A stretch of DNA of 64,000 nucleotides, from the NCBI GenBank assembly GCA_963920705.1, contig OY987236.1:6062190-6126189 (forward strand), given 5' to 3'. The stretch comes from Odiellus spinosus. Lineage: Eukaryota > Arthropoda > Arachnida > Opiliones > Phalangiidae. The position numbers and the translations under genes are program-made. A model generated the notes under the pieces. That model was not told the DNA's origin and made no database searches. It worked only from the letters and a program-made list of their open reading frames with translations. Below are positions 16,756 to 60,286 of this stretch, piece by piece; position 1 is the first letter of the stretch; each line of letters begins with the position of its first letter.

Positions 16756-17170
16756 CAGAGGTATATAACCCCCTTCGGGGGGAAGTATGAAAGGTAGGCA
16801 AAATCGACGAACAACAAGTGCCCGGCGTAAATCGCGGCGGATCGACACACCGCTTTACTCCCAAAAAATAGTTACACCATTTTGAACCTCACTAAATTTT
16901 CCCTACGCGCACTTCCGGAACTCGCGAGCTGAAGTCAACCTTGGACTCCATTTTAACAGACAGCCTGACTCCCGAGACAGAAAGCTCTAAACACAAATCG
17001 AGCCGTCTTGTTTATACAAAGACCATTTACTAGAGTAGCGACATTGAGAAGTCCAGCGCGAGCTAGTGGCCTAGATAGTCAGCAGCGGGCTCTTGTTGTT
17101 CGTAATTTTTAGCATTGGTAGTATAGGGGCTTTCATACTTCCCCCTGAAGGGGGTTATTATATACCTCTG
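16756..17170. mobile_element. MITE family C, copy 1
   Basis: 415 bp with long inverted ends starting CAGAGGTATATAA, followed by a G/C hairpin-like cccccttcgggggg. The second copy (34202-34615) is in inverse orientation. The flanking heptamers (GTTATAT, CTAATAC) match only partly. The open frame 16646-16864 on - overlaps it and is not a gene. Confidence 0.85.
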
Positions 17171-17829
17171 CTAATACTTTACTTTTGGTTAACTTTTTGT
17201 ACGTTTTAACTCGTTTTAACGTCCATTGTGACGAGTAATTCAAACAAAAGGTTAAAATAATCTCACTTAATTTTATTACGAGTACTAAGCGCGTAAATTA
17301 GTTCATGGCTAAAACACTTGGGGTGGATTTCTAGTTAGATTTTTTTTTGTTTATGAAACATTGTCGCTTTGTAAGTTATAGTTCCCCGAAAAAAAAACGT
17401 ATTTTTATTTTCAGTTTTATGTTAGAAAGATAAAATAATTTTTTTTTTCTACACAGAAGATACTAACAGCCACGCTATATAAATTTGCATAAATTTCTTT
17501 GTTGAGGTATATTTTTTCCCCTTTTCTTTTGAAGGCAAAAACTTTTACGTGATAAAATCTTTTAACTCCTTCCATTGTATTTGGTAAGAATTGCTTTCCC
17601 AAGATTTGGTCCGCGAACCCTTCGTAGGTATAGTAATATTTCTGGTTATAGTGTATTGAAAGGATCTTTGGGAACTTTCTTCTAAATTCATATATAATTC
17701 ATTGAAAATTGACTAATTACTCCAATATGGTTGATTTATCAATAAGTTACTTATAATAGTTGACGGTTAAAGGTCAAGTCTCTTATAAATTTAAGTTTTA
17801 TATATTTTAAACCACGTAATATTAAAAAT
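17171..17829. other. AT-rich intergenic stretch
   Basis: Low-complexity T/A runs; nothing recognised apart from AT-rich filler. Confidence 0.4.
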
Positions 17830-18202
17830 TTAAAGGGAAAATGCAACCTGACGGGGTTGCCACAGGTCAGGGAAAAGTCAGAGAATTTGAAAATGAACCA
17901 GAATTTTAAGGTATTTTAAAAAGTCAGGATATTTTAAAAAGTCGGGGAATTTTAAGATATTTTAAAGAGTCTGAGAATTTAAAGATCTTTCAAGAAGCCA
18001 GGAAATTACAATCATTATCTGCTGAAAATATTTGAAGCTGACCGTGTCAGTTAGAACAAAGATATGCATGCAAAAGTTTGGCGAACGCAATTATAAAAAA
18101 AAATTAAAAGGTTAAAAATTGTGTAGTATTAGCTGAAATAGTCAGGGAAAATCGCTGGAAAAGGTCAGGGAATTTGAATCTGAAAAAATTGTGGCAACCC
18201 TG
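17830..18202. mobile_element. CAGGG-type MITE family A, copy 1, next to a TTAA-type end
   Basis: CGGGGTTGCCACAGGTCAGG at 17852 pairs with GTGGCAACCCTG ending at 18202 (351 bp). The body repeats phrases like gtcagggaatttga. Immediately left, TTAA plus AGGGAAAATGCAACCTGA (17830-17851) is the end of the TTAA family seen at 35656-36017, so one element seems to abut or interrupt the other. Confidence 0.75.
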
Positions 18203-18574
18203 ATTTCAATATAAAGTTTGTAAAAGTATTCCAAGTTCATAAATAACTGTAATTCAATTTACATATATATAATATTGGAATGTTTGAAACACACCCATAT
18301 TTATAATGTTAGTTTTAGGCGTATACATATCTACACGTAATTTGTTTATTGATACTCCTATCATTATAGCCTATGCGTTGTTCTTAATGAATTTGTATAA
18401 CCACGCGCGCCAAGTTTTTAGTTTTATATAGCCTTGAGAACTTGGCTTCGACTGTTACCATCAAAATTAAGTTTTTATGAATTCCCTCTGTTGATAACCC
18501 AACTACTGTCATTTCAATATCGAAATATTGCTCTAAGATCTTAAAATAAACACGCAACTTGACTCAAGTTAAAG

Positions 18575-18865
18575 CAAGAAGGATCAGATAAGGAGAGGAA
18601 AAGTGGGAACGGCGCGGCTCCTACTGCGTCGGCCTAAACTCCCACTCTGGGAGAACGGGGGACAGACGGGGGTAGAGATGCTTCGTGGTAAATTGTTGTC
18701 ACGTGGGTAAAAGAATCCTTTATGAGACGCGCTAGCTAGCGACCACGTGACAACAGTTTACCTCGAGAATTTCCTATCCCCCCTTTCCACCCGAGTGGGA
18801 GGTTGGCTCTTCTCTCTCTAACTCAACGCAGCCCCACTTTTCCTCTCCTTATCTAATCCTTCTTG
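18575..18865. mobile_element. MITE family D, copy 1
   Basis: Inverted ends CAAGAAGGATCAGATAAGGA and AGATAAGGAGAGG partner on the right side, with a GC-rich body and a central CTAGCTAG palindrome. GTTAAAG flanks both sides (18568-18574; 18865-18871, sharing one base with the element end). Confidence 0.85.
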
Positions 18866-18911
18866 TTAAAGCTAAAGCTAAGCACTTGAATTTCATTTTG
18901 AAAAAATTACC

Positions 18912-19294
18912 GAGGTTGTTTTTTACACGCGTGACGTCGGTTTTAGTTTTCATTTCAATTTGCTACCATAGAATAACGAAAGAAATCGGCTTACCCAATG
19001 AGTAAAAATCTAATTGGATCAAAAAGGATCCAACCGAATGCGATCAAATATACCAAATTAAGTAACATGAGTTCAATAAAAGTGGACCAAAGTCATTTAA
19101 ATTTGGTCCACTTTTGTGGAATTCGTTTTTTTTTCATTTGATAGAAGAATTGTGAAATAATTTTCCATTTAAAACCTTTTTTGACAAAATTAGAAGATAT
19201 TTCCTCATTGGGTTATCCGATTTCTTCCGCTATTCTATGGTAGAATATTGAAATTAAAAGTAAAATCGACGTCATACTAAGTAAAAACAACCTC
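18912..19294. mobile_element. MITE with ~90-bp inverted repeats
   Basis: GAGGTTGTTTTTTAC at the left pairs with GTAAAAACAACCTC at the right. The inverted similarity continues inward through gacgtcggtttta and taccatagaataacg to about 19000/19205. No clear target duplication is seen. Confidence 0.75.
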
Positions 19295-19299
19295 ACGAT

Positions 19300-20710
19300 T
19301 TTTAACAATTTTTAAAGAATATATTCGTGAGCTTTGGCGCGAGATCAATTTTACAAGTCAAGTTACCATGTCTATTCTTTAAATTTTTGTTGACCGGCAT
19401 GCATATGAAGTGGGGGCCCAGAGTTTTACGAATCTTAGCTGCTTCAAACAGTTCTTGGTTTTAACTTGAACCGAAGGTATTTTTATATAGGACCTAGTAT
19501 TGAATTCATGCAAATATACTTCTAAACAATGCTTTATATATGTACAAACCGAGTTTGCAACTTAGGTACGCAAGTGGGACACGCGATAGAACTTTTATCG
19601 TGTAGACACGCGTGTACTGAGCTAATTTATCACCGGGGTTAATTGTTTCTCGTAAAGAGAATGAGAGAAGGAGGTGGGGGGAGTGAAATTAATAGAATCT
19701 TATATAAGGGGGGACAAGGATCGAATTCCCCGGGGATTAGTCCTCCCCATTCGATATACCCCCGTATATCCTAAGCCAATCTAGTCGATGGGACCCTAAT
19801 TAGAAGTGACCCCGGACAATTCTAACCCACTTCCCCTTTTGGCTCTCGTTATACCCTAGCTTTGCCGCTTTACCCCATGGGTCACCGCTTAAAGGGAGGG
19901 TGAAATTACTTTATAATTAAAAAAAAACGTGTCTCATTAGTATTTAAACATTAGTTTAAGACTGAAAACCAATTTTAACAATTAGTCTTTACTATTTTTA
20001 TCGACTGCTAAATGTCTGTTTGGTCACTCGGCGCCAATAGGAGAGCTACCGGAAGTAAAGATACCAGAGAATGAACTCTATTAAACCCTACCCCATAACC
20101 ATAGAAAACTGCAGTTTTATATCGGGAACTTGGCTACCTTAAACGTATTTTTAATTAATATAATAAATATTTTCTCGCGGAATATAGGCCTAATAGGTCT
20201 TTGAGTAACCGCACGAGCTGGCTAATTGCCTAATTATAATAAAAATTATCTTTATTTTCGTTTTGACCTTCTCTTTAAATCGAATAGGTGTGGAGGGAGA
20301 TAAAATGACCTTTATAGGTCAAGGGGAAATTTCATTAGAGTTCGCTTCCGCCCCAATTGATGCTAAACAGCATTGACGGCTGTCTTTTAGCTTTGATTAA
20401 TGCGGCGAATCCCCCTTTTTTCCCCCTTTCGAGAACCTAAAAAAAATGCCGCATTTTTTTTTTATTGAACATCTATTGCGCTTTAGCAATCGGTTAAATA
20501 GCATTATAATGTTATATGCCTAACCCCCATAGTTCATTCGGTTAGAAACATTAGAGACAAAGGTATTTAGATTTCGGAGGCCAATATCTCTGTCTTCTAC
20601 TCTATTTGCTGTAATACTTTTTGGAATAGTTTCTATTGTTCTTTGTTGTGGAATTCCAAGTAATATGTTTGTTATTACATCAACAGTCCAATACAGTCCT
20701 CCTAAGGTTC
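19300..20710. other. Intergenic, partly GC-richer
   Basis: 19590-20060 is GC-richer with C-runs; no frame or RNA gene is recognised. It includes a gctaccggaagt ETS-like site near 20046. Confidence 0.3.
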
Positions 20711-20716
20711 AGATTG

Positions 20717-21131
20717 CAAGGTGACCACTTTTCCTATATTTCCCATTTTTTTCCTATATTTTCACCTCCTTCCTATATTTCTCCTATAATTTAATGGCAA
20801 TTCCTATAATCTCCTATATTTCTACTCAAAATCTCTAGTTAAGGGTAAAGTTATAAATTATACTGTCAGCTGTATAATATTATTTTAGCTTAACTGTACA
20901 TTTTCCAGTTAAAATAGTCTGTAAAATTCCATACTATTTAAGCAATTGCATCATATTAATACCACGTTTAAAGGGGTGTCGAGAGTTGTGATGCAATAAT
21001 AAACATGGTTCCTACTTTTAATTAATTATTTTCCTATTTTATCATATATTTTACACTTATTTCTTCCTATTTTATCCTATATTTTCCTATATTTCCTATA
21101 TAGGATTTTCAAATTTTCAGTGGTCACCCTG
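20717..21131. mobile_element. CAGGGTGACC-type MITE with 6-bp duplication
   Basis: CAAGGTGACCACT at the left pairs with AGTGGTCACCCTG at the right. AGATTG flanks both ends (20711-20716, 21132-21137). The body is made of tcctatatttt-like phrases and shares an internal ~280-bp core with 38285-38565. Confidence 0.8.
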
Positions 21132-21139
21132 AGATTGAT

Positions 21140-22914
21140 ACGGGACCTTGAATTAAAAGGGAAATTTAAAATACGTTTTAGAATTTATTACTGTAAAATG
21201 CTGCATAATATCGAACTCTCGTTAGATATTTGTTAAGCCTACTTTTCAAGATTTGATTTCGAGCTTAATATACAATACTTATAAAACTATCGCTAAATTA
21301 AATTTCAGTATTTCAGTCTCCCTTTATTTGAATAATTAAAGGAATAAGCCAAAATTGATCCTAAATTAATGTTATCCAGAACTCCGGTTGTTATATATTC
21401 AAAGTAAATAACTGTATGGGTTTGCATGTTAAATTCCAAATTTCTAATTCATATTTCAAACATACTATGAAGATGTCTGTATCAAAAATTCAAAATTTAT
21501 TTTTGCGGGAATAAATATTACAGGAAATGGTCTATACCTTGTTTCGCTAGTCTCCTCGACCCAGAAAATATGGGAGAACCTCATAGTGGTGCATAGGGGA
21601 TGCTCTTTCATAAACAAATCGATCTAAAGCCGAGTGAAACCAAATACTTGCCCCCAAAAATCAGACTCTGTTAGCGATTAAACCAGTCGGTAATGTCAAC
21701 ACGTAACTACCCTACAATTTTTAGGAATGCTCATAAAGGGGTAGCAACGCTACCTGATTAAAATTAAAATTAAATTATTAAATTTGAATGTATTCGGGAA
21801 AAAATTACCATTCTTGCGTGGCGCCTTCAACATAAACTTATTTTACATTTAGCTAGTAGACAACGAAAGAAAAAAAGCTACCTGTTTCAGACTTTTCGAA
21901 CGTAAATATTTAAGGAAATTCTCTGGGCTCCTGGAATTGCTAAGTAAATTTTTTACTTCGCCTTACCTTTCACTCTCGTAAACTAATATACTACCAAACT
22001 TTCAAGGTATTTTTTTGGTACCACATCTACTCTCTAACTAGTACACTTAAAAGTTTTAAGGTATACTTAGCCTATGAGAGTATTTTTACCACTTCCGTAA
22101 AATCTGTACACCAATTACTTGATTACGTAACTGATTACAGCCTTTGTTAATGCTAAAGTGGTTTGAATCATTAAAAGTGGGCTATGGATGGATATCTTTC
22201 CCTTAAAACTTGCACGCGATTAGCTAGTTTTAGCTTTCTTACGTCTGAATAGATGTTCACTTGCTGTCGGCCAGAAAAAGATGAAAACCAAATCTAGAAT
22301 TTTTTTTAACAAACTCAATGGTAATAACCATAAATTTTTGATCATATAGCAGAGTTCTCTATACAAGTTCAACCCTCAAAACCATGTGATAATAACCCTT
22401 TAACCTTTACTAGAGATTAAACTTAGTAAAGCGTATACTTTGGCAGCGTTGTATTCTGCCGTTTCTTCATTTGGAACATCTCTAGAGGCGGCGGAGAATT
22501 TTCTCTCCAAATTTATCATTAATAATTTGCGAGTTACCCCGGCAACACTCGAATCCTAAACGTTCATTTAGAGAGACACTGAAACTGAGAGATATAGTCA
22601 CCCGAAGAATTCGACACTCATTTCCCATATGTTTCGTTTTATCTAAGAAATTACCCAAAGTCATAACTCTAAATTCCGTAGTATCTCGAGTATTGAAAAC
22701 TACGAATGGTTTTATAAATAAGTAGTATAAAGATGAGGGAAAAGCTTTTGATACATAATTTGCGGCACGCGTTACGATTCCCCGTCAAAATCTCCTCCTT
22801 TACGCGCGTAAATGAGGCCAAAAGTTGGCCCCAATTCCTTCGCTCTGCATGCAAAAATTAACAGTTCATACTATATTCGAGCTATATTTTTCAAAGTGAT
22901 AATGTACTGTAATT
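21140..22914. other. Intergenic stretch, no gene supported
   Basis: Several 60-codon frames (22482-22664, 22669-22854 on -) show no family features. Sequence by eye is single-copy. Confidence 0.35.
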
Positions 22915-22918
22915 TTAA

Positions 22919-23326
22919 AGGGAAACTTGGAGCGAAAAACGAAACACCCTTTGAATTTATTTTCGGAATTACCGTGCTAAAAAACATGTATGAATTTTTA
23001 AATTTTGGTTAAATTTAAATAGAAGTAAATATACATTCGGACCAATCATATTATTTCAGCCTTCATTAGCCCTTGTAACGTCTTAACATTAAGAGAATAG
23101 GCCGGCGTGTGATAGCCAAGACCTTGAGAATCAAGTGCCCGCCTATTATTTTAATGTTAGAATATTATAAGCGGCCGAAATAATATGATTGGTCCGAATT
23201 ACTTTTAACAAACTTTAGAAATTAATTTAAATACCAAAAAAAGTGTCTAAAAATTGTGAAAAAATTCTCAAATACGGTTTTTTTTGGCATTGTGATTCCA
23301 AAAATAAATTCAAAAGCTGTTCCCCT
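22919..23326. mobile_element. TTAA-type MITE with internal palindrome
   Basis: TTAA at 22915 and 23327 flank AGGGAAACTTGGAGC and a right end reading TTCCCCT. Centre 23037-23200 is an imperfect palindrome with TCGGACCAATCATATTATTT arms. Related copies: 36773-37223 and a core at about 27985-28090. Confidence 0.75.
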
Positions 23327-23329
23327 TTA

Positions 23330-23905: not shown

Positions 23906-24059
23906 ATGGTCAAGCCCATAGGAATAGCTAGACCCATGACATTGTAAAAGAGGCTGAAAAGAATTATGCTATAGCAGGGGCTTGTTATGCATGCATAAAC
24001 GCTCTTTGAACAATTTGAATGGCGTTTCGAGATTCCTTTAAACACGAAGTTGCGTAAAG

Positions 24060-24556
24060 TTTTTCAAATCATGTTTTTCAAATCATGTTTTTCAAATCAT
24101 GTTTTTCAAATCATGTTTTTCAAATCATGTTTTTCAAATCATGTTTTTCAAATCATGTTTTTCAAATCATGTTTTTCAAATCATGTTTTTCAAATCATGT
24201 TTTTCAAATCATGTTTTTCAAATCATGTTTTTCAAATCATGTTTTTCAAATCATGTTTTTCAAATCATGTTTTTCAAATCATGTTTTTCAAATCATGTTT
24301 TTCAAATCATGTTTTTCAAATCATGTTTTTCAAATCATGTTTTTCAAATCATGTTTTTCAAATCATGTTTTTCAAATCATGTTTTTCAAATCATGTTTTT
24401 CAAATCATGTTTTTCAAATCATGTTTTTCAAATCATGTTTTTCAAATCATGTTTTTCAAATCATGTTTTTCAAATCATGTTTTTCAAATCATGTTTTTCA
24501 AATCATGTTTTTCAAATCATGTTTTTCAAATCATGTTTTTCAAATCATGTTTTTCA
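24060..24556. repeat. Perfect 14-bp tandem array, 35 copies
   Basis: TTTTTCAAATCATG repeated 35 times with no visible change, plus a partial unit. As 14 is not a multiple of three and the unit has no stop in the + frames, all three + frames stay open and give a 14-residue periodic peptide. The frames are a by-product of the repeat, not a gene. Confidence 0.97.
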
Positions 24557-25190
24557 GCTTGGCTACCTGTGAACGCGTCTTTGTATCTAATCTTTATTAA
24601 TTTATCTTGGATACCCGTGTGAAAGCGGCTTTATATCTAATCTTTATTAATATATCTTGGATACTCGTGTGAAAGCGGCTTTATATCTAATCGTTATGTA
24701 TTTATCTTGGATACCCGTGTGTACGGGGCTTTATATCTAATCTTATTTTTTCTTTGATACCAGTCTGAACGCGGATTTATGTCTAATCTTTATTAATTTA
24801 TCTTGGATACACGCGTGAACGTGGCTTCATATCGAATATTTATTAATTTTTAACTTAGATACCCGTGCGAACAGGCATTTATATATTATCTTTGTCATTT
24901 TATCTTGGGTACTCGTGCGAACGGGACTTAATATCTATTCTTTATTAAGTCATTTTTACCTTGGAAACGCGTCTTTATATCTATTCTTTATTAAGTCATT
25001 TTATCTTGGATACCCTGCGAACACGCCTTTATATCTAATCTTTATTAAATTTTACCTTACGAAGGCACCTTTACATCTAATCTTTATCGTCTTATCTTGG
25101 CTACCCGTGAAAACGCACCATAATATCTAAAATTTATTAATTCATTTTATCTTGAACACCCGTGAAAACACGCCTTTATCTAATCAACCT
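24557..25190. repeat. Degenerate ~50-bp tandem array, about 12 units
   Basis: Units start like ttggatacccgtgtgaaagc and continue tttatatctaatctttatta. They directly follow the 14-mer array and vary by substitutions and indels. The frame at 24915-25130 is a repeat artefact. Confidence 0.9.
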
Positions 25191-26448: not shown

Positions 26449-27070
26449 AGGGTTGCCACCGGTCAGGGAAAAGTCAGGAATTTTAAAATGAACCAAAAAA
26501 GGATCAATCATTATCTGCAGAAAATATTTGAAGCTGACCGTGTCAGTTGTATAGATTAGAACAAAGATACGCATGCAAAAAGTTTAGCGAACGCGATTAT
26601 ATAAAATATATAAAAGGTTACTAATTGGGTAGTATTAGCTGAAACCAGAAGCCGATGAAACCCTCCTTTGAAGTCTATTACTCCCGGGTCTTGTTTACCC
26701 CTCTCTGTATGGGTTAGTTTCAAGAAGCGCGATTCGTACGCTTCCTAACGGTATATTTTCGGAGCGGGAGTTCCTCGAGCGAATATCTCTTGCAGCCTTG
26801 GAGTTCGTCAAAAAAACGTCGTCGTTTGTGGAGAGAGAGAATTTCCAATTTTTCGTAGACAGGGGGGTATGAAGTATGACCCCTCCGATCTCGTAAAATT
26901 GGGAATTTTACCCATACAGAGAGGCGCGCTATATGGAACATTAGAGTAGTAGACTTCAAAGGAGGGTTTCATCGGCTTCTGCTGAAACGGTCAGGTAAAA
27001 TCGTTGGAAAAGGTCAGGGAAAAACCTGGAAAAGTTAGGGAATTTTAATCTGAAAAAACTGTAGCAACAG
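26449..27070. mobile_element. CAGGG-type MITE family A, copy 3, interrupted
   Basis: AGGGTTGCCACCGGTCAGGG at the left and TGTAGCAACAG at the right. The body is split by the family B element at 26646-26981, so family A was here first. Confidence 0.8.
26646..26981. mobile_element. MITE family B, copy 1, nested
   Basis: 336 bp with ends CAGAAGCCGATGAAACCCTC and its inverse. An exact 7-bp duplication, CTGAAAC, occurs at 26639-26645 and 26982-26988. The frame 26720-26959 on - lies inside it and recurs in shifted form in the other copies; it is not a gene. Confidence 0.95.
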
Positions 27071-28536: not shown

Positions 28537-29597
28537 CAGGGTGGTTCTGATCAAAAAAACTCGATAGGCTACTAGCTTCTACGTAAAAGGAAAATTAACA
28601 TTGAGCGCGTGCAATTCGAATTAATTTTTCAGAACTCTCGCGCTCGAGTTAGAATAATAAATTAGTTTAACACGCGCTCAATGTTAGTTCAAATAGCACG
28701 CACTCGATGTTAATTCGAATAGCGCGCTCTTAATGTTAATTCGAATAGCGCGCTCTTAATGTTAATTCGAATAGCGCGCGCTTAATGTTAATTCGAATAG
28801 CGCGCGCTTAATGTTAATTCGAATAGAGCGCGCTTAATGTTAATTCGAATAGAGCGCGCTTAATGTTAATTCGAATAGAGCGCGCTTAATGTTAATTCGA
28901 ATAGAGCGCGCTTAATGTTAATTCGAATAGAGCGCGCTTAATGTTAATTCGAATAGAGCGCGCTTAATGTTAATTCGAATAGAGCGCGCTTAATGTTAAT
29001 TCGAATAGAGCGCGCTTAATGTTAATTCGAATAGAGCGCGCTTAATGTTAATTCGAATTGCGCGCGCTCGGTGTAATTTCGAATAGCGCACACCTAATCT
29101 TAATTCGAATATAGCGCCCGCTCGATCTTGATTCGAATTGCGCGCCCTCAGTGTTAATTCGAATAGCGCGCGCTTAATGTTAATTCGAATAGCGCGCGCT
29201 TAATGTTAATTCGAATAGCGCGCGCTTAATGTTAATTCGAATAGCGCGCGCTTAATGTTAATTCGAATAGCGCGCGCTCAATGTTAATTCGAATAGCGCG
29301 CGCTCAATGTTAATTCGAATAGCGCGCGCTCAATGTTAATTCGAATAGCGCGCGCTCAATGTTAATTCGAATAGCGCGCGCTTAATGTTAATTCGAATAG
29401 CGCGCGCTTAATGTTAATTCGAATAGCGCGCCCTCGATGTTAATTCGAATAGCGCGCCCTCGATGTTATTTCGAATAGCGCCCGCTCGATCTTAATTGGA
29501 ATAACCCGCCCTCAATGTTAATTCGAATAGCACGCGCTCAATGTGAAATTTATCGTTCCATAGAAGCTATTGAGTTTTTTTGATCAGAACCACCCTG
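28537..29597. mobile_element. Tc1/mariner-like MITE carrying a minisatellite
   Basis: TA dinucleotides (28535-28536; 29598-29599) flank inverted ends CAGGGTGGTTCTGATCAAAA and TTTTGATCAGAACCACCCTG. Nearly all the interior is a 26-bp tandem array. TA duplication with CAGGG ends fits a Tc1/mariner non-autonomous element. Confidence 0.9.
28660..29545. repeat. 26-bp minisatellite, about 33 units
   Basis: The unit is AATGTTAATTCGAATAGCGC plus GCGCTT. It combines an ATTCGAAT palindrome with alternating GCGCGC. Variants cluster: an AGAGCGCGC block (about 28814-29040) sits between AGCGCGCGC blocks, and a more diverged patch lies at about 29050-29150. Confidence 0.95.
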
Positions 29598-29599
29598 TA

Positions 29600-30365
29600 T
29601 AAAGTCAATGCCGCACGAGCTAAATAGTTTCTACCCAATTATTTACTGCAGTCTTTCAGTGGCAGGCAATCTCATTGAATGTATATCGTTTGTATTTCAA
29701 CTTAATTTAACACTAAGCGCTAAGCTTGTAACTCCCTTTACGTATAAGCGAACTTATCTTATAGAGATAAGCAGTTATTCTATCTTTATACGGGGTGCCA
29801 ATTCAGCTTGAAATATAATACTTCATCCAAGTCAGCGTAACTTAAGGCCATTGATAAACTTTATATTCGACTATTTCGTCTCAATTTACTTAGTCTCGTG
29901 TTACTTTGGTATAGTATATTATAAATTGTGTTCGACTTTGAGCCAATGCTTGAGAAGTTTGTATTTATTTGTATAAGGGTAACAACCCTTTTTTTCCTGC
30001 TCCTCCATTATATCGTATTATTGCTTCAAATAGAACGAATGAAGTTTATTTTGTATAGAGTAACGTAGCACCATAAGTAGATAGTTTAAACTTAATACTT
30101 TAATTTTTTTCCGAGTTTAATTCAGTGGTTTTCTTTGGAGGTCACGATCAGACGAGTTGTGCCTCTTAGTTTTTGTTTTTATATTAATTATAATATTTAT
30201 CTTAAGCCTTTTTCTTATATTAAAAAACAAGTTGATGAAATAGGCCAATCAAAGATCACGAGTGTTTTAAGAATTAACTCAATCACCTCTTAAAGAGCGT
30301 AAGAAGTCTAAAAGTGATCTTAATTAATCTTTGAACTCAGGAAGAAGTGTTGAAGACCTCTTCTA
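29600..30365. other. Intergenic stretch
   Basis: A 67-codon frame at 29608-29811 (+) has no recognisable features. Nothing else is seen. Confidence 0.3.
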
Positions 30366-30372: not shown

Positions 30373-30707
30373 CAGAAGCCGATGAAACCCTCCTTTGAAG
30401 TCTATTACTCCCGGGTCTTGTCTACCCCTCTCTGTATGGGTTAGTTTCAAAAATCGCGATTTGTACGCCTCCTAACGGTAGATATTTTCGGGGCGAGAGT
30501 TCGTCGAGCGAATATCTCTAGCAGCCTTGGAGTTCGTCAACCAAACGTCGTTTGTGGAGAGAGAGAATTTGTAATTTTGCGTAGACAGGGGGGTATGAAG
30601 TACGACCCCTCCGATCTCGTAAAATTGGGAATTTTACCCATACAGAGAGGAGCGCTATATGGAACATTAGAGTAGTAGACTTCAAAGGAGGGTTTCATCG
30701 GCTTCTG
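30373..30707. mobile_element. MITE family B, copy 2
   Basis: 335 bp, ends CAGAAGCCGATGAAACCCTC and its inverse. Exact 7-bp duplication GTGCTAT at 30366-30372 and 30708-30714. Confidence 0.95.
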
Positions 30708-37707: not shown

Positions 37708-38023
37708 CAAGAATCCATTCAGGTTCCATAAGAATATGGGAGCATAGCTTTAGCCTCTGGTACCATCCTCCCAAACTTTGTAACAAAAGTTCGTCTGCAA
37801 TTTTCCCAACATTTGTACGCTTAGATCTTTTTTCGGTCGGCTCCATTTTTATTACCCAAAATATTATGTCAAGGTCGTTAGTGGCGCGGGTTAATAATAG
37901 ATGTCAGGAGCGATTTACTTGAAAAATCGATTCGAAGCAGACGAACTTTTGCTGCAAAGTTTTGGAGGATGGTTATTGAATCTCGGCCCTCCCATATTCT
38001 TATGGAACCTGAATGAATTCTTA
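37708..38023. mobile_element. MITE family E, copy 1
   Basis: 316 bp with ends CAAGAATCCATTCAGGTTCC and its inverse. A 7-bp duplication, ATATAAT, lies at 37701-37707 and 38024-38030, and the last base is A instead of G. The frame 37655-37846 (-) runs through it and is not a gene. Confidence 0.93.
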
Positions 38024-38284: not shown

Positions 38285-38570
38285 CTCTTAATATTTAAAA
38301 TATATTCACTTTCCCTATATTTCCTATTTTTTCCTATATTTTCACCTCCTTCCTATTTTCTCCTATAATTTAATGGCAATTCGTATAATCTCCTATATTT
38401 CTACTCAAAATCTTTAGTTAAGGATAAAGTTCTAAATCATACTGTCAGCTGTGGCTGTATACGATTATTTTAGCTTAACTCTACATTTTCCAGTTAAAAT
38501 AGTCTGTAAAATTCCATACCATTTAAGCAATTGATCATATTAATACCATGTTTAAACCGGTGGCGAGAGA
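38285..38570. mobile_element. Truncated CAGGGTGACC-type element
   Basis: About 280 bp match the interior of 20717-21131 (phrases tttaatggcaattc, ctgtcagctgt, attttccagttaaaatagtc). Both terminal repeats are missing. Confidence 0.8.
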
Positions 38571-39824: not shown

Positions 39825-41150
39825 GGTTTGACAAAACAACAACCTTTTTTCCTTTGAAGTAAATTCTTAATCCGCATTTAAATTTTAAAAGTACCTCTGT
39901 TTCATCACTTTGACGTTAAAGTGAGGGTGAAGTTTAAAATGTAAGATTTTTTATCGATTCTGCGTCGAAAATATATCCGTAGTAAAACATTATGAAAGTG
40001 TCTCTGATTTGATTGGTTTAGGTATTCAATCGAAAAGAGAACCTATGACCGTAGAAAATGTAGTAAAAAGAAATAGGAACTTCATCTTTGCCAGTACAAA
40101 CTTTAGGGTACAGGTTTAGTCGAGCTCATGCTGGGGTATCTCCACTTCCGGTATCTCTCCTACTGGAGTGGAGTGACAGGCATTGAGCAGCCGACAAAAA
40201 TAATGACTAAATAATAGACTTTTCTGAACGAAAAATATAACACACTGATCTCCAGAAAGTTGAATAGACGCAGTTTGAATTGGAACAGCAATTCGTTTTA
40301 CTATATGTTCTATATTTTCCGACTAATCAAAACACGCCCCATCTTTGTCTTAATAAAATCCCCGCGACACGTGCGTACAACTGCGCGTGTCGCGGCTATT
40401 TTATGAAGCCAAAGGCGTGGAGTCCTTTCATTAGTCGGAAGTACTCCTTTTAATTGAATGCCTAAACTGAATCTTCCCAAATATTTTAATAGTAGAATCG
40501 AAAGAAAAATCACTTTTCCTTTACACCCTTTCTTTAAAGATAATCGTGCTATAGTGTCCCTTCAAAACTATAGATTGGCATATTTTTTGGCTCGTTTTCA
40601 CCCTCTTTTAATTAGGCCCGCATCGGCAAAGTAATTTCGCAGAGCCGCTCGTACGTTGAAAGGAAGAATATCAAGAGGGCTTTAATCTCGATAGAGGATT
40701 ATAATTTGGCTCGAATTATAAGGCTCGATTCGAATGCCTGTCCAATTATAGAGATCGGATATTCTTGATTTTTTTTGTACCGGAAATTAAATTTTTTTTT
40801 TATGACATTGGGAGTTTTTCTTAAGAAAGATTTTGGGTTTTCAATTTTTAATACAAATGCGATTTTTATAATAATTATTATTATTCTAATATTATTATGC
40901 CACTTAAATATTTTTTATTAAAGTTCTTCATTTGTGACGAATAATAACCAGTAAATTTTATAGATCCACACTTGCTTAACGGTTTAAAATGGTTTTAAAT
41001 TGTGGTCGGGCCTTTAGTGAATTTACGCGATACACTTTGAGATCTCATTATTAATTTTTTTATGCGGATTAAGAATTTTCAAAGGTTTTAAGATTAAGAA
41101 GTATGTCTTTCAAGATTTCTTAGATACGATTAATTTTGGTAATTGCGCAG
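39825..41150. other. Intergenic, contains a small hairpin element
   Basis: Nothing recognised besides the element at 40319-40438. The 67-codon frame 40310-40513 (-) overlaps that element. Confidence 0.35.
40319..40438. mobile_element. 120-bp foldback MITE
   Basis: Inverted ends CCGACTAAT and ATTAGTCGG, then CACGCC and GGCGTG. A strong central stem is formed by CCGCGACACGTGCG and TGCGCGTGTCGCGG. No clear target duplication is seen. Confidence 0.7.
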
Positions 41151-41154
41151 CATT

Positions 41155-41966
41155 ATATTTTGAAATTTAAATTTGTTAATGGCTCATAATTATCTAGATA
41201 TTTTTAAATTTAAATTTGATAATAGCTCATAATTATCTAGATATTTTGAAATTTAAATTTGTTAGTGGATAATTATTATCTTGATATTTTGAAATTTAAA
41301 TTTGTTAATGACTCATGATTATCTAGATATTTTGAAATTTAAATTTGTTAGTGGATAGTTATTATCTTGATATTTTGAAATATAAATTTGTTAGTGGATA
41401 GTTATTATCTTGATATTTTGAAATTTAAATTTGTTAATGACTCATGATTATCTAGATATTTTGAAATTTAAATTTGATAATGACTCGTAATCTAGATATT
41501 TTGAAATTTAAATTTGTTAGTGGATAATTATTATCTTGATATTTTGAAATTTAAATTTGGTAATGACTCATGATTATCTAGATATTTTGAAATTTAAATT
41601 TGATAATGACTCGTAATTATCTAGATATTTTGAAATTTAAATTTGATAATGACTCGTAATTTTCTATATATTTTGAAATTTAAATTTGTTAATGACTCAT
41701 AATTATCTAGATAATTTGAAATTTAAATTTGATAATGGCTCATAATTATCTAGATATTTTGAAATTTAAATTTGTTAGTGGATAATTATTATCTTTATAT
41801 TTTGAAATTTAAATTTGTTAATGACTCGTAATTATCTAGATATTTTGAAATTTAAATTTGATAATGACTCGTAATTTTCTATATATTTTGAAATTTAAAT
41901 TTGTTAATGACTCATTATCTAGAATTTTGAAGTTTAAATTTGATAATGGCTCATAATTATCTAGAT
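41155..41966. repeat. 43-bp AT-rich tandem array, about 19 units
   Basis: The unit reads gatattttgaaatttaaatt, tgttaatgactcataattat, cta. Two main subtypes (gactcataattatcta and gtggataattattatctt) alternate irregularly. Confidence 0.95.
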
Positions 41967-41969
41967 GTT

Positions 41970-43455
41970 GGAGATTTAAAGATTTATAAAATTAAGTGTA
42001 CGGAATTTTGATTGGTATCCGACCCCTCGCGGCAGCTGTTCTAGTTCGACCAACCTGGAGTCTTCAGGAACAAATCTGTTTTATTCTTAGCCCGTACTTA
42101 CCTTCAGCTACATACATACCCAATGTGATTTAAATATTTTAAAGGATTTGTTTTTGGAGTATTTCTTTTAAAGTAGACGGGATGTCTTGAAGTACTTTTC
42201 CATCTTCTAATGGCTTCCATTTTTCTCAAGATGACTAGATATACTACTGTTCAAAAGGAGTTGGCAATATGGTCAAAGTTGAGGCGGATTGATACTCGAT
42301 ATTAATCTTCGAAGTAAAAACGATATCTTATAGCCAACTGATTTTGAACACTAGATATATAATATAATTTTTGTTTATGAAACGGAAGATATAAAGAAAA
42401 TTAAGTTTAATCTTTGGAAAGATCCTTTAAAAGGGTAAGCATGTAGCTAAACTAATGACGATTAATTTAAGGTTGTTACATAACCTAAATATCAAAGATA
42501 ACGTGGAGGAGTCGGGGGGTTTCCAAAATTTTTGGTAGAAAGTCAGGAATATGCCAGGGATTTAATTATTTGGATTAACCGAAACATATGCAAATGTCAA
42601 ATATTATCTAGGTTAACCAACGTATATTTAGTAAATATCCATATTTCTATTCAGTCCTTGAAAAATACACAAGAAATATACGTTTAAAATGTGTGAAATG
42701 AATCAAAACTCATTGCTTAGAGAAAGGGCGAACGCACACCACGGTTTTTTTTTGTTAGTTCCTTCTTTTGCTACTGTTTGCCGTTAGAGGACGCTTGTTA
42801 ATGCCAGTTCTAGGTGCCATTGATTTAAGATTAAAGTTTACTATCATATTTTACGCTTTTTAAGTGTAAAAACAATAAAAACTTGTATAATCAATACTCT
42901 AATCTCTATGATTTGGTTTCTTGGAGCTCTACACGCGTAGCCAACTCGGTAATTTTAATTTAAATTTGAAGCTCCGCGTATAAAATTTCAGTTTAACAAA
43001 CCGCTCTCGATTTTATATTGACTCTCTCGAATTTCCTCGCGGCGTCGAGAAAATGAGAAAGACGAAACCTTTTATTATTCTTATATAATATATAATATAG
43101 AGAAAAGCCGCAGGAACTTCTATAAAACGCGCCTTAACTGATCTCTAGTCAATGATTAAAATGGCTGCTTTATTTTAATATCCCCTTGTAAGCCGATGAC
43201 GCCGCGAGTCTAAAGAAATGTCGAAGAATAGGATGTTACGCCGAGAGAGTGTGTGAAGAGAGAAGAGAGATGGTATATAGAGGAAATTATAAACTCCCTC
43301 ATTTTTCCAAACTGCGTGCATCGAAAAGGATAGGAAATAAAGAGTGCTAGAAAAAGGAGAAGTGAGGTACTGCTTTATTTTAGTGTAATTTTCGTAGAGG
43401 ATACAAATAGCAGAATGACCACATTTTCATTGTTTTCCTATAAATTCCTATAATT
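41970..43455. other. Intergenic stretch
   Basis: Part of 42500-42560 resembles family A phrases (gtcaggaatatgccagggat). 43000-43380 is GC-richer and purine-rich with no frame of note. Confidence 0.3.
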
Positions 43456-43460: not shown

Positions 43461-43776
43461 CAAGAATCCATTCAGGTTCCATAAGAATATGGGAGAATAG
43501 CTTTAGCCTCTGGTACCATCCTCCCAAACTTTGTAACAAAAGTTCGTCCGCAATTTTCGTAACATTTGTACGCTTAGATCTTTTTTCGGTCGGCTCCATT
43601 TTTATAACCCAAAATATTATGTCAAGGTCGTTAGTGGCGCGGGTTAATAATAGATGTCAGGAGCGATTTACTTGAAAAATCGATTCGAAGCGGACGAACT
43701 TTTGCTACAAAGTTTGGGAGGATGGTTATTGAATCGCGGCCCTCCCATATTCTTATGGAACCCGAATGAATTCTTG
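43461..43776. mobile_element. MITE family E, copy 2
   Basis: 316 bp, nearly identical to 37708-38023. Ends CAAGAATCC and its inverse, with an exact 7-bp duplication TTTCTAC (43454-43460; 43777-43783). The frame 43631-43864 on - runs across its end and is not a gene. Confidence 0.95.
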
Positions 43777-51985: not shown

Positions 51986-51989
51986 ATTT

Positions 51990-52110
51990 CAGACGAGGCT
52001 TAACTAGCCGGTTTAATCCGATTCAATCGTAGTTTAATCACAATTAACTGAGAAGGTTATTTAAACCTCGGTTAAATCTGATTAAACCACGGCTAATTTT
52101 TCCTCGTCTG
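51990..52110. mobile_element. Short foldback element, copy 2
   Basis: Inverted ends CAGACGAGG and CCTCGTCTG, then TTAACTAGCC with GGCTAATTTT. No clear target duplication. Confidence 0.65.
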
Positions 52111-52114
52111 AAGA

Positions 52115-53317: not shown

Positions 53318-53935
53318 CGGAAAAAGATGAACATCAAGATGGCCGCCTGCAAAAAGATGAGAGTTAGATGGACGCCTGAAAAAAGATGAAAAGCAAGATG
53401 GCCGCCTGAAAAAAAAGATGAAAATTAGGTGTGTTCCCATTTCACCCAAATATTTCGCCCAAAATTATCTATTCCCATTTCGCCCAATTGTTAGGTTAGG
53501 TAGGGTTAGGTTAGATTATTTGAGATTGGGCGAAATGGGAATTGGGTCAAATGTTTTGGGCGAAATGGGGGTAAACCAAAAATTAAGATGGAAGCATGAA
53601 AAAAGATGAAAAGCAAGATGGCCGCCTTAAAAAAGATGAAAATTAAGATGGAAGCATGAAAAAAGATGAAAAGCAAGATGGCCGCCTTAAAAAAGATGAA
53701 AAGCAAGATGGCCGCCTTAAAAAAGATGAAAAGTAAGATGGCCGCATGAAAAAAGATGAAAAGTAAGATGGCCGCATGAAAAAAGATGAAAAGTAAGATG
53801 GCCGCATGAAAAAAGATGAAAAGTAAGATGGCCGCATGAAAAAAAAAGATGAAAAGTAAGATGGCCGCATGAAAAGCAAGATGGCCGCCGAAAAAAAGGT
53901 GGAAAGGAAGAGGACCGCCCTTAAAAAGATGAAAA
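53318..53935. repeat. ~30-bp minisatellite inside the Helitron
   Basis: Units of type aaaaagatgaaaagcaagatggccgcctg repeated with variation, interrupted by a palindromic insertion at about 53432-53572. Confidence 0.9.
53432..53572. mobile_element. Foldback insertion with TTAGG units in the minisatellite
   Basis: TTCCCATTTC and TTTCGCCCAAAA on the left pair with TTTTGGGCGAAATGGG on the right; the arms repeat inward. The centre (53491-53514) reads ttaggttaggtagggttagg then ttag. Confidence 0.7.
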
Positions 53936-54164
53936 TAAAAATTAGAATTAAGTGAAAAATTAAATCTTCTTAAAATTAGAATTAAGTGAAAAATTAAATC
54001 TTCGATTTGGTATCGTTACATGCTGTTACTAATTATAACACTGTTCAATCCTTTTCACCTCTTTTCATATGGCAGGCGCGTGGAAACTCAGATTTTAATA
54101 CAATTTCATTACGCCCGAAGCAACTGGATGAAACCCGCCCGTAGGGCGGGCTTTCAGCTAGTAA

Positions 54165-54520
54165 ACTATAAAGGAGCGGAGACATTCAAGTTGAATAGTC
54201 GATATTATTTTTACTAAAATGTGTTTCTAATTGATCTGGATTTTAAAAATATTCGTAGAAAAGATAAATATTCAAATTCACCAGTTTTAAAATTTGGATC
54301 GAAGATATTTCAGTGAGAATACATTATTAGCCAGCCTTTGAAACCAAAAGGAGTGATTTTAGAAATATAGCGGCGCTTTAGCTTGGTTCAAAGATCATTT
54401 CTAATAGTAAATTCCACTGGATCCGTCTTAAAGTGCTTCTGAATCTCTCTGAAAACCCAATTTCTCTTGCTCCCAGTCGCTAAAGAGCTTTAAGTAGTTG
54501 AACAAAGATATTTTAAGTTG
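54165..54520. other. Short intergenic spacer
   Basis: Nothing recognised between the Helitron and the next MITE. Confidence 0.35.
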
Positions 54521-54527
54521 ATAAAAT

Positions 54528-54864
54528 CAGAAGCCGATGAAACCCTCCTTTGAAGTCTATTACTCCCGGGTCTTGTCTACCCCTCTCTGTATGGGTTATT
54601 CTCAAAAGGCGCGATTCGTACGCCTCCTAACGGTAGATGTTTTCGGAGCGGAAGCTCGTCGAGCGAATATCTCTAGCAGCCTTGGAGTTCGTCCAAAAAA
54701 CGTCGTCGTTTGTGGAGAGAGAGAATTTCCAATTTTCCGTAGACAGGGGGGATGAAGTAGGACCCCTTCTAACTCGTAAAATTGGGAATTTTACCCATAC
54801 AGAGAGGAGCGCTATATCGAACATTAGAGTAGTAGACTTCAAAGGAGGGTTTCATCGGCTTCTG
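54528..54864. mobile_element. MITE family B, copy 3
   Basis: 337 bp, ends CAGAAGCCGATGAAACCCTC and its inverse. Exact 7-bp duplication ATAAAAT at 54521-54527 and 54865-54871. Three overlapping frames inside (54537-54906 region) are not genes. Confidence 0.95.
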
Positions 54865-54874
54865 ATAAAATGTA

Positions 54875-56027
54875 GAGAAAAAGGTTTTCTACTGGTACAT
54901 TCTTAAACCCTTATTTATTGGCCAAACATAAAAAGATTTCAATGCTGAACCTAATATATAATTTCGAATTGACATTGAACCAATAATCTGCTAAACCATT
55001 TTAATCTGTGGTGAAATTCATGAAAAACAAAAAAACCTCTTGCCCTTGGTACCTTTTATTACGAAAGCCCTGAAGCTGTAGAGCAGAAATTCTTCCATCA
55101 ACCTCTACAGGCTAGGAATGTTTTCGATTCTACCTCTCTCGATTGGGGGCATCCTCGATTCAATCCTGAACCCAAAATTCATATCCCTGGGTCCCCGGGA
55201 AACTAATTGTAATAAATACCGAGGTTTTATGTCACCCGGGGTATTCAATTCGTACAATACTATACGCATTGTAAAGTTAACTATTATAACTAAATTTAAA
55301 CTGTAGTTTACCTTTATTTTTACTGAAGACTGTTTTGGGATGAAGTTAGGTGTTTATTCACGGTTATTGTTCTAAACTAGCTAAACAACGGCGTATTTAT
55401 ACACAATGTTGAATATCATAGGAGTGAAAGTAGATAATACTCGCTTCTCTCGAACAACTAAGCCTCTCTTCAGTCTTTAGCTATAGTCGTTCGCTCTTAA
55501 GCCTATTTTTGTGGACGCTATTATAACACTAGTTGCTCGAGTACTAAATACCAGTATCACTTGTCAGTGATAAGGAAGGCGGTGAAATCTTTGCACTCTA
55601 CGTATTTCCCACTGCAAAATGACGTTGGGCTTTTTTATATAAGGTTTCCCATCGATCTTCAATATGGGGAGATATTTTTTTCTCTGGATTCTCTTTTAGC
55701 ATCGTTCTTTTCTTTTAGCGGTGCTCTTGAGCTTCTCTCTAGGGATCGAGATGAGAAGAGGTTGGAGAGGGTGAGAGAGTTAGGATGGAGAATGGGTGTA
55801 GGAGGGGCCCGTGCCCCCTTGAGGGCCCCAAGGAGGAAAAATGGTGGGGGGCAAATTGGGGCGTTCTAGGGATGTTCTACTCACCAAATTTTCTGGACAG
55901 TTATCTCCAATGGTCTTTTAACGACCTCCCGTAGTTTTAGGACTTTTTTTTCTTCACGAAAACTCCTTAATTACTGTATAGGGCAACTTTAATGGGGATT
56001 GTCTTCAAGAGATATGAATTTAGGCCC

Positions 56028-56061
<34 letters not shown>

Positions 56062-56385
56062 TTTTAGTTTTTTTCTTCTTGGATCTTGAAAGACCTAATA
56101 GTCTCGTTTTAAAGGGATTCTAAAGTGAAAAAAAATGTATTATTATATATCGCGTTAATTAATACCGAAATTTAATCAAATATTAACTTTTTTCTCGCCA
56201 ATTAAACTGAATTTAATGAGGGAGATATTCTGTTTGGTAACTTGTGTCTGGATAAGAACGTTTCGACACTCGGTGTGTAGTTTTTTAATTATAAAACAAA
56301 TCTAGTTTTCAGTCTATGCACCCATAATATAATATGTAGTAAAACGCTTGTATCCCTCCGGGCTTCTTTCTATAAGTTAAATACT
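54875..56385. other. Intergenic, GC-richer around 55.4-55.9 kb
   Basis: A 102-codon frame (55561-55869, +) is Arg/Gly-rich at its end and unrecognised. A T-tract of about 30 lies at 56031-56058. Confidence 0.3.
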
Positions 56386-56389
56386 TTAA

Positions 56390-57195
56390 ATAAATACCTT
56401 AAATTCCTAAATAAATGCATTAAAATACATTAAATGCATTAAAATACATTAAATGCATTAAAATACATTAAATGCATTAAAATACATTAAATTCCTTAAA
56501 ATACCTTTAATCCCTAAGTAAATTCCTTGAAATAGCTTTAATTCCTAAATAAATGCCTTAAAATACCTTAAATTCCTAAATAAATGCCTTAAAATACCTT
56601 AAATTCATAAATAAATGCCTTAAAATACATTAAATTCATAAATAAATGCCTTAAAATACCTTAAATTCATAAATAAATGCCTTACAATACCTTAAATTCA
56701 TAAATGCCTTAAAATACCTTAAATTCACAAATAAATGCCTTAAAATACCTTAAATTCACAAATAAATGCCTTAAAATACCATAAAATCCTAAATAAATGC
56801 CTTAAAATACCATAAAATCCTAAATAAATGCCTTAAAATACCTTAAATTATTAAATAAATGCCTTAAAATACCTTAAATTCATAAATGCCTTAAAATACC
56901 TTAAATTATTAAATAAATGCCTTAAAATACCTTAAATTATTAAATAAATGCCTTAAAAACCTTTAATGCCTAAATAAATGCCTTAAAAACCTTTAATGCC
57001 TAAATAAATGCCTTAAAAACCTTTAATGCCTAAATAAATGCCTTATAATACCTTTAATTCATAAATAAATACCTATAAATACAATCATTAAAACCAATAC
57101 CTATAAATCAAATAATTAAAACCAATAAATGCTTTAAAATCAAATCATTAAAACCAATAAATAAAATAAAACCAAAGACATCTGTAAATAAATAC
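56390..57195. repeat. ~31-bp AT-rich tandem array, about 25 units
   Basis: Units such as ccttaaattcctaaataaat plus gccttaaaata, with shorter variants (acattaaatgcattaaaat) at the left edge and diverged units at the right edge. Confidence 0.93.
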
Positions 57196-57199
57196 CTGT

Positions 57200-58015
57200 A
57201 ACTTAAATCCTAGGTTTGAAATAAGTTTTGATAGATTTAGTTCAGGTTTTTTTTTATGATTTTTCTTTAATTCATAACAATTTTCACATTTTTTTTATTA
57301 ATAAGGGTTTGATTTTAGTGAAAACAACTGGGTTTTTTGCGTCGGGGGAATTAAAATTTATTCCCCCTATTAAAAATTATTTCTCGTTTTTTTTTTTCAC
57401 ATTTAAATACGTTTGAATGTTTTGGAATAATTTAATTACATTTATCTTTAAGTACTTTTAACACGTCAATCGGCCCCCTCCGAGTTTAATATTAAATTCA
57501 AATTTAAGTAAATTTTAATGATTCGTGATGATAATATTTTTTCTCCCTGCATGCTTTTCTTTTTATAAAATATTTTGTACACTATTTTGCATATCGTGAA
57601 TTTCATTTCTTTGCCCTTTCGTGATTCGTGTGACGAATCACGTGACAGTAATTTTATCATTCTTTCGAAAGAAGCAAAAGTAAAAAGATTAAATTACTTA
57701 TTTTTGGCCTTTTTAGAAAACCCAATTTTTCTTTTATTGCTTAATTTATTTTTAAAGCGATTTATCCCGTTATATAATAGGCCCAAGTTTTAGGGTTCAT
57801 TTATTTTAAAGACACAGTGAAACTAAAAAAATTGTTCCATGGTTTCAGATTTCAATAAATTTATACTTCATTATAATCGTTAAGCCTAATATAATGGCTT
57901 AAAATTTAATATATTACTAAGCTTAACATTTATTATTGGCATTGTTAACCATAACCCTAACATAAAGGCTTATAATAATTCCAGTATTTAGTGACTTTAA
58001 AGCAATTTCAGATTC
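57200..58015. other. AT-rich intergenic stretch
   Basis: Frames at 57228-57416, 57466-57660 and 57575-57793 are low-complexity. A short palindrome, GTGATTCGTGTGACGAATCAC, is at about 57620. Confidence 0.35.
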
Positions 58016-58020
58016 TCAAA

Positions 58021-58353
58021 CAGGTCAGGGAAAACAGGGAAAAGTCGGGGAATTTGAAAATGAAACAATAAAGTCAGGAAAGTCAGGGAATTTAAAGATC
58101 TTTCAAGATGCCAGGAAATTACAATCATTATCTGCAGAAAAGATTTGAAGCTGACCGTGTCAGTTGTATAGATTAGAACAAAGATATGCGTGCAAAAGGT
58201 TTGGCAAACGCAATTGCAAAATAATATTAAAAAATAAAAGGTTAAAAATTGGGTAGTATTAGCTAAAACGGTCAGGGAAAATTGTTCGAAAAGGTCAGGG
58301 AAAAAGCTTGAAAAGTCAGGGAATTTGAATATGAAAAAATTGTGGCAACCCTG
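58021..58353. mobile_element. CAGGG-type MITE family A, copy 5
   Basis: Right end TGTGGCAACCCTG. The left end is shortened to CAGGTCAGGG. TCAAA flanks both sides (58016-58020; 58354-58358). Confidence 0.85.
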
Positions 58354-58359
58354 TCAAAG

Positions 58360-58664
58360 ATTAAAATAATTGCTAAGCCTAAATTTAAAGACCAAAAATA
58401 TTATTTTTAATTTCACTGCGTTTTGAACACGTAAGGTTTGGGTTAAATTTAGTATTCGAGTTCGTATGACCTGTACTAAAGCATCCAGATATATTTATTA
58501 TTCACTTATCAATATGAATTTTTGGAAAACTTGAGTGGCAATTTTTCACATCAAATATGGTATTTTCTTATCAAATATTTATGTCTGGGCTTTGAATTAT
58601 TAAACATTAAGATCATTTCAGTTTTTATTTTTTTATGTTCCGAAATATAAATATAGGATTTTGG

Positions 58665-58700
<36 letters not shown>

Positions 58701-59080
58701 CGTGGTGTTATTATTATACTTTTGTTATTCCATTTCGTGAGAATATTAGATTTTAGGTAATTTTACAATTAACATAAATTTAAGTCTATTTTTAAATATA
58801 GCGTTTATTATACTCAGTTATATCCTTTGAATGAATCTAAATTATGTTTTATAAATCAAATTTAGGTTTAAACGGGATAATGAATACGAGTAACGTCCTC
58901 TCCATTTTTATACTTATTAAAACCTGAATTTAATTAGAATAATCGCGTTTAGTCAAAGGGTGTGGGAAAAATTTAGTCAGTTTTAGTAACATTATATATT
59001 TTACGCATAATAAAAATAATATCTTACTCATTTAACGTTTTTTAACTATCCAATAAAAATATTTTTTATTTTATTAAATT
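58360..59080. other. AT-rich intergenic with a T-tract
   Basis: A run of about 32 T lies at 58669-58700. Nothing else is recognised. Confidence 0.4.
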
Positions 59081-59136
59081 ATAATTTTATTTTTTATTAT
59101 TACTATTAAAATAAATATAAATAATTTAATTTTTTT

Positions 59137-59211
59137 CCTGCACTTCAATGAGCTTTACAGAATCTTTTTGTACCTCTGTAAACAATTCTGTAAAGCTAGT
59201 TGAAGTGCAGG
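59137..59211. other. Long-stem hairpin, 75 nt
   Basis: CCTGCACTTCAATGAGCTTT plus ACAGAAT pairs with the inverse arm 59185-59211 with only a 2-base mismatch; the loop is about 21 nt. The AT-rich flanks (to about 59085 and 59275) are also loosely inverted. It may be a small foldback transposon or a microRNA-type precursor. Confidence 0.7.
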
Positions 59212-59308
59212 AAATAAAATTGAATTGAATTATTATTTATTATATTATTTTTATTATTACTAGTAATTAATAAGACTTATACTTTATGGTTTAACCCCAA
59301 AAATAATA

Positions 59309-59614
59309 CAGGGTTCATACAAACTTGGAAAAACCTGGAAATTTCAGGGAAATCAGGAAAATTTGGGGCTTGGGCATATTTGTTTTAAATGGGTTGTTTC
59401 GTCAAATATTCTAAAAACAACTCCATGGTGTTCCAATATTATTACTCCATTTTATTGACAGAAGTGGATAATAATTAAAAAAATATATTACGAAGAATGA
59501 ACCCGCGAGGCGAGAAGCAATAAAAATTAAAAGTTTGGTCTTGGACCTGGAAATTTCAGGGAAACATTTATGGAAAACCTGGAAATTTCAGGGAAATCGG
59601 TTTCGCAAACCCTG
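59309..59614. mobile_element. CAGGGTT-type MITE, 306 bp
   Basis: Ends CAGGGTTCATACAAACTTGG and GGTTTCGCAAACCCTG; body phrases aacctggaaatttcagggaa near both ends. TAATA flanks both sides (59304-59308; 59615-59619). Confidence 0.88.
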
Positions 59615-60005
59615 TAATAAAGTTTTGAGGTTAAACCATGAAGCATCATTCATTCTCATTAATTAATTTAAATATTTAAGTCAGCGTGGTTAATTAATTA
59701 AATATAAAAGAACATATTACTCGTCTTCATTATTCCTTCAACTGAAACTGTCGAGCTTTGATATTCTAATCTTTAATTTATTACAATTATTCCGATTTTG
59801 ATTTCAAATATTAAGAAAACTGTTATCCTTACATTAATCTCTGGTGTAACTTCCTCGCGTGTACTTTGAAGTTTAAATTTTATTTCATTTGATTCTCCCG
59901 AGACTAATTCTCTAATTATAAATTCACGCCGATAGTTTTAAGATTTCTCTCTTTGAAGTATATGCTAGAAGGGCTTTATAACGTATTTCTTCTCTATACT
60001 TCTAT

Positions 60006-60286
60006 CAAGGAGGATTAGACAAGGAGAGGAAATGTGGGGCTGCGTTGAGTTAGAGAGAGAAGAGCCAACCTCCCACTCGGGTGGAAAGGGGGGATAGGAA
60101 ATTCTCGAGGTAAACTGTTGTCACGTGGTCGCTAGCTAGCGCGTCTCATAAAGGATTCGTTTTACCCACGCGACAACATTTTACCACGAAACGTCTCTAC
60201 CCCCGTTCTCCCAGAGTGGGAGTTTAGGCCGACGCAGTAGGAACCGCGCCGTCCCCACATTTCTTCTCCTTGTCTAATCCTCCTTG
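60006..60286. mobile_element. MITE family D, copy 2
   Basis: 281 bp, inverse orientation to 18575-18865. Ends CAAGGAGGATTAGACAAGGA and its inverse. Exact 7-bp duplication CTTCTAT (59999-60005; 60287-60293). Confidence 0.95.

Follow-up and report, generated by a model that had tools for sequence, protein, structure and literature searches.

Four families of 7-bp-duplicating miniature inverted-repeat elements in the arachnid Odiellus spinosus very probably belong to the P superfamily

Galileo, a P-superfamily transposon of the Drosophilidae, makes 7-bp target-site duplications (TSDs) at palindromic sites described as GTAGTAC, GTATTAC or GTANTAC (PMC2775673, PMC4168063), and 1360 (Hoppel), a P-superfamily transposon of Drosophila, duplicated 7 bp in 274 of 279 insertions, with the motif GTTNAAC (PMC3276498). 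The Drosophila P element and the zebrafish THAP9 transposon, which carry subterminal inverted repeats besides their terminal inverted repeats (TIRs; PMC7776569), have a stagger of 8 bp, and the several P-type families of miniature inverted-repeat transposable elements (MITEs) of Anopheles gambiae, tied to P subfamilies through their ends, make 8-bp duplications (PMC1562414). We examined four MITE families, B, C, D and E, found in a 64,000-nucleotide stretch of the genome of Odiellus spinosus (Opiliones, Phalangiidae; assembly GCA_963920705.1, contig OY987236.1, positions 6,062,190 to 6,126,189, forward strand; hereafter the window), and conclude that they are very probably non-autonomous P-superfamily members that depend for movement on P-type transposases with a 7-bp stagger.

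The four families resemble Galileo in their 7-bp duplications, in GTANTAC lying within a palindrome and in the many copies without a transposase, but Galileo has long, internally repetitive TIRs, and three of its copies are reported with 8 bp. They share 7 bp and a palindromic target with 1360, although GTTNAAC departs from GTANTAC at the third and fifth base, and both of these likenesses are drawn by description, not by sequence. As in A. gambiae, multiple MITE families inhabit one genome, in this case with 7 bp and with no coding partner found in the loci and positions checked. Families B to E have TIRs of 33 to 91 bp, in keeping with the P superfamily, whose members combine roughly 30-bp inverted ends with subterminal inverted repeats, a layout that is not specific to P: B has a 38-bp TIR and a 15-bp subterminal inverted repeat, matching the layout of the Drosophila P element (31 and 11 bp, PMC7776569), and C has a subterminal inverted repeat of 24 bp at 88% identity. 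The 8-bp stagger of the P element and THAP9 sets them apart from B to E, and 8-bp relatives with CA...TG ends also occur in the O. spinosus genome. A 7-bp duplication is thus not an oddity but a signature of known P-superfamily members; the sequence-only reading of this DNA, which had called it uncommon among well-known superfamilies, had omitted P from its list.

That reading had recognised nine elements in the window, belonging to four families with different bodies, and all nine are present with the ends it described. Compared by blastn (E 0.01), the four family bodies show no match to one another. Exact 7-bp repeats flank seven of the nine (B1, B2, B3, C2, D2, E1 and E2; Table 1), including the six that had been listed as exact; in E1, where one terminal base change had been allowed for, the repeat is likewise exact. 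The 6-bp duplication of D1 would be one of 7 bp (GTTAAAG) if one of two neighbouring G's had been lost. The flanks of C1 are unequal, yet each is similar to the target motif described below, as if its ends might stem from separate insertions joined by recombination, which has been reported for Galileo. MITE B1 is nested in another repeat, uninterrupted relatives of which lie near positions 18,070, 23,790 and 58,200 of the window. Joining its flanks minus 7 bases gave an empty site scoring 151, 135 and 205 bits against these three relatives, and scores were lower when 6 bases (145, 129 and 198 bits) or 8 bases (148, 127 and 196 bits) were removed, so that 7 bp fits this paralogous empty site better than either.

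To evaluate duplication length across the genome, the window's own assembly (443 Mb, 286 contigs) was searched, and the best-scoring copies of B, C and E (28, 30 and 30, respectively) and 10 of 40 scored copies of D were inspected, samples that are biased to well-kept copies. Exact 7-bp repeats flanked 23 of 28 B, 27 of 30 C and 21 of 30 E copies, together 71 of 88, and all 10 D copies. The longest exact flanking repeat never had a length other than 7 among the 88 copies, and the 17 lacking a 7-bp repeat had no exact repeat of 3-12 bp either. Among these 17, the 12 E and C copies carried one mismatch in 7 (8 copies) or two to four (4 copies), while the 5 B copies, judged by eye, carried one mismatch (two copies), two (one copy) or five (two copies). 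The genome-wide tabulation proposed in the sequence-only reading therefore yielded neither an 8-bp nor a variable duplication, and a fixed 7-bp duplication, within the 7-or-8-bp class required for the P superfamily, is present in families B to E.

The duplicated heptamers have a common composition. In the 71 exact heptamers of B, C and E, T occupies position 2 in 80% and A position 6 in 86%, the first base is G (39%) or A (28%), and the last is most often C (39%); outside the heptamers the pattern is mirrored, the third base upstream being T in 59% and the third base downstream A in 76%. Matches to GTANTAC, the Galileo consensus, stood above local background with z values of 8.4 for B (n = 23), 10.3 for C (n = 27) and 7.6 for E (n = 21). 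A palindromic, GT...AC-like target motif was found for the MITEs, weakly for D.

The same genome holds many P-type transposases. A profile of the P-type TNP-like RNase H N domain (PF21787) gave 386 candidates, and all 150 that were scored passed the curated cut-off. Ten transposase loci were fetched, and both element ends were located in four of them (L090, L093, L095 and L096). The L090 element measures 3,768 bp, has identical 30-bp ends starting CGGTGCC, and contains an intact open reading frame (ORF) of 798 aa with THAP, TNP-like RNase H N and GTP-binding insertion domains. When its predicted transposase was aligned to PDB entry 6p5a, the P transposase of Drosophila (E 3.8e-21), residues D403, D493 and E734 fell opposite D230, D303 and E531, the catalytic residues of that enzyme (PMC7776569); L090 is an intact P-superfamily element with a catalytic D-D-E. 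Four copies, on contigs C1, C2 and C8, have an intact ORF and 100% protein identity, and all four are flanked by exact 7-bp TSDs (ATACAGA, GTATAAT, CTTCAAA and GTAAAAC), two of which match GTANTAC at at least 4 of its 6 fixed bases; judging from these sequences, the L090 elements were probably active recently. Relatives of the L090 transposase, present at 45-64% identity, are obvious candidates for the partner of B to E. By comparison, the P elements at L093, L095 and L096, each about 4.4 kb long, share the MITE-like CA...TG ends and are flanked by 8-bp TSDs (GTTATAAC, GTTATACC and GTTCCATT). P transposons of the 7-bp and 8-bp kinds thus coexist side by side in one genome, and a comparison with the solved P transposase structure could be used to look for the residues that determine the stagger. 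The MITEs are borne out as non-autonomous DNA transposons whose stagger is fixed at 7 bp and whose target preference is shared; the suggestion of the sequence-only reading that 7 bp pointed to an undescribed transposase is not supported, since that length is known in P and occurs at every L090 copy examined.

Copy number was estimated from exact matches to the end patterns on the forward and reverse strands, which were 9,730 and 9,813 for B, 3,093 and 3,098 for D (including 513 and 517 of the D2 type), 2,410 and 2,377 for E, and 1,816 and 1,774 for C; the same patterns read backwards, as a control, gave no genome match for any pattern. Because an intact element has one end per strand, the count on one strand approximates the number of elements, and these values suggest about 9,700 B, 3,100 D, 2,400 E and 1,800 C elements, or about 17,000 for all four families. 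The D2 type is young, since all 40 scored copies, from 615 candidates in a first look, are identical to D2 across all 281 bp. These MITEs appear freshly mobile, so the genome may still contain a working 7-bp transposase. The best B copies, two excepted, show 94-97% identity. An exact scan of viral contigs with the 21-base B end gave no match. On contig C1, between about 3.3 and 10 Mb, matches to P-type transposases are many and E and C ends are few among the matches listed, as if the MITEs and the coding elements landed or survived in different places.

Families B to E are placed in the P superfamily by their stagger, target motif and end layout and by the 7-bp P transposon resident in the genome, and not by shared ends; the C end matches those of L093 and L096 at 13 of 20 bases, which is the best of four comparisons made without a control. 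In such a system, the transposase would bind the inverted ends, using THAP as its DNA-binding domain, and excise the element; its RNase H (D-D-E) domain would join those ends, staggered by 7 bp, to an AT-rich palindrome resembling GTANTAC, and gap repair would then yield exact heptamers. More tentatively, a P clade with 7-bp, GTANTAC-like targets, separate from the neighbouring 8-bp P elements and extending beyond the Drosophilidae, may have populated this genome with the four or more MITE families and their roughly 17,000 members, with transposition of D2 probably ongoing. An abstract-level literature search, which is not proof of absence in print, found no 7-bp P elements outside the Drosophilidae.

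Several observations weigh against assigning B to E to the P superfamily. The GTANTAC match at D sites is weak (z 3.4, n = 11). Targets of hAT elements (hobo GTNCGNAC) likewise have T second and A second-last, but are 8 bp long. Neither the 10 fetched loci nor the end positions listed for contig C1, together a small part of the genome, showed a transposase enclosed by B, C, D or E ends. In those loci the nearest single matches to the MITE ends had 4-6 mismatches in 20 bases and none stood at an element end, the nearest being the C end in L096 (4 mismatches, inside the element), followed by the C end in L093 and the E end in L090 (5 each); nor did blastn match B to E to any of the 10 loci. Among the matches listed for contig C1 (100 per pattern), no end pair framing a transposase match was seen by eye; the listed positions extend to 1.87 Mb (B, forward only), 3.9 Mb (D), 15.2 Mb (E), 17.7 Mb (C) and 33.4 Mb (D2). 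Finally, L090, which makes 7 bp, starts CGGTG rather than CA, and the P elements with CA...TG ends make 8 bp, so that no coding element seen unites CA...TG ends with a 7-bp duplication.

Three further places were considered in the search for a coding partner. A forward B end at contig C1:512561 lies about 1.5 kb past a transposase match (C1:509363-511063), with no forward B end listed within 9 kb before the match, and a complete D2 MITE (contig C1:8059673-8059953) lies 2.7 kb ahead of another; neither arrangement frames the match, and both were rejected. A 1,878-bp element at contig C1:24459970-24461847 has both D2 ends and exact 7-bp flanks (GTTGAAG). The 90 bases inside its left end equal D2 minus one base, and the 50 inside its right end equal D2; known from these end regions, it is possibly a D2 copy with an insert, or a longer form. 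Among ORFs of at least 130 aa in loci L001 to L088, none was recognisable by eye as a transposase.

Within the P superfamily, we also considered whether one single transposase drives all four families. Their equal stagger and similar target motif are what a single enzyme would give, and B shares 12 of its 20 terminal bases with C. However, the other family pairs agree at just 4-8 of 20, subterminal words are not shared between families above the level of shuffles, the families differ in age (identical D2 copies as against the divergence among B copies), and different P-type transposases are numerous in the genome. A single driver is therefore unlikely; several related transposases seem likelier, and it is probably these, of the 7-bp P-type kind, that mobilised B to E.

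Mobilisation of these elements by an undescribed superfamily that has CA...TG ends and makes 7-bp duplications, akin to the possibly undescribed transposase of the sequence-only reading, would agree with the lack of a coding element bearing B to E ends in the 10 loci and the positions listed on contig C1, and with the separation of CA...TG ends from 7 bp in the coding elements seen. We consider it improbable, because stagger, motif and end layout all match known P members, and because a 7-bp P transposon resides in the same genome. Still less probable is a relationship to hAT with an unusual 7-bp stagger. CAG-type ends are common among hAT elements, and T and A stand at corresponding places in hAT targets. 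However, hobo duplicated 8 bp in 1,196 of 1,198 insertions (PMC3276498). In the MITEs, 8 bp was the longest exact repeat in none of the 88 B, C and E copies, and the B1 empty site and the D copies also indicate 7 bp. PIF/Harbinger elements, whose target duplications are 3 bp, were ruled out despite two DDE_Tnp_4 ORFs in the window. Dada, which is described as lacking TIRs and targeting small-RNA genes (PMC3706591), was ruled out by the TIRs and the varied target heptamers of B to E (small-RNA genes at the insertion sites were not searched for).

The MITEs of the P-assigned families are listed in Table 1 together with one further element. When the window was scanned for inverted ends with 8 exact terminal bases, 16 matches in 20 and a spacing of 80-3000 bp, 649 pairs were returned, and those with exact flanking repeats of at least 5 bp comprised B1, B2, B3, C2, D1, D2 and element F; E1 and E2 fail the rule of 8 exact bases, and their ends and TSDs were verified directly. 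Element F was rejected as a fifth family: its 9 genome candidates, all scored, were itself, one full-length match at 67% and seven partial ones.

Table 1. Positions, orientation and target-site duplications of the inverted-repeat elements in the window.
Element	Positions	Strand	Length (bp)	TSD	Remarks
MITE B1	26646..26981	.	336	CTGAAAC	TSD at 26639-26645 and 26982-26988
MITE B2	30373..30707	.	335	GTGCTAT	
MITE B3	54528..54864	.	337	ATAAAAT	
MITE C1	16756..17170	-	415		No TSD (GTTATAT / CTAATAC); opposite orientation to MITE C2
MITE C2	34202..34615	+	414	AAAATAG	
MITE D1	18575..18865	-	291	TTAAAG	6-bp TSD; opposite orientation to D2
MITE D2	60006..60286	+	281	CTTCTAT	
MITE E1	37708..38023	+	316	ATATAAT	Final base A, not G
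MITE E2	43461..43776	+	316	TTTCTAC	
Element F	12619..12987	.		GTATAAT	CATAG...CTATG ends; nearly single-copy

Tandem arrays occupy positions 23933-24570 (14-bp unit), 28538-29600 (26 bp), 41026-42010 (43 bp), 53519-53879 (30 bp) and 56392-57105 (about 31 bp) of the window, and two copies of another repeat, about 175 bp long and 95% identical to each other, occur at 20778-20948 and 38357-38533. A Myb/SANT-like ORF and the two DDE_Tnp_4 ORFs lie at 8880-9518 (+), 9610-10440 (-) and 13052-13747 (-), a set that we take to be as in PIF/Harbinger transposons. One exon in the window encodes an FF domain, which is a eukaryotic feature.

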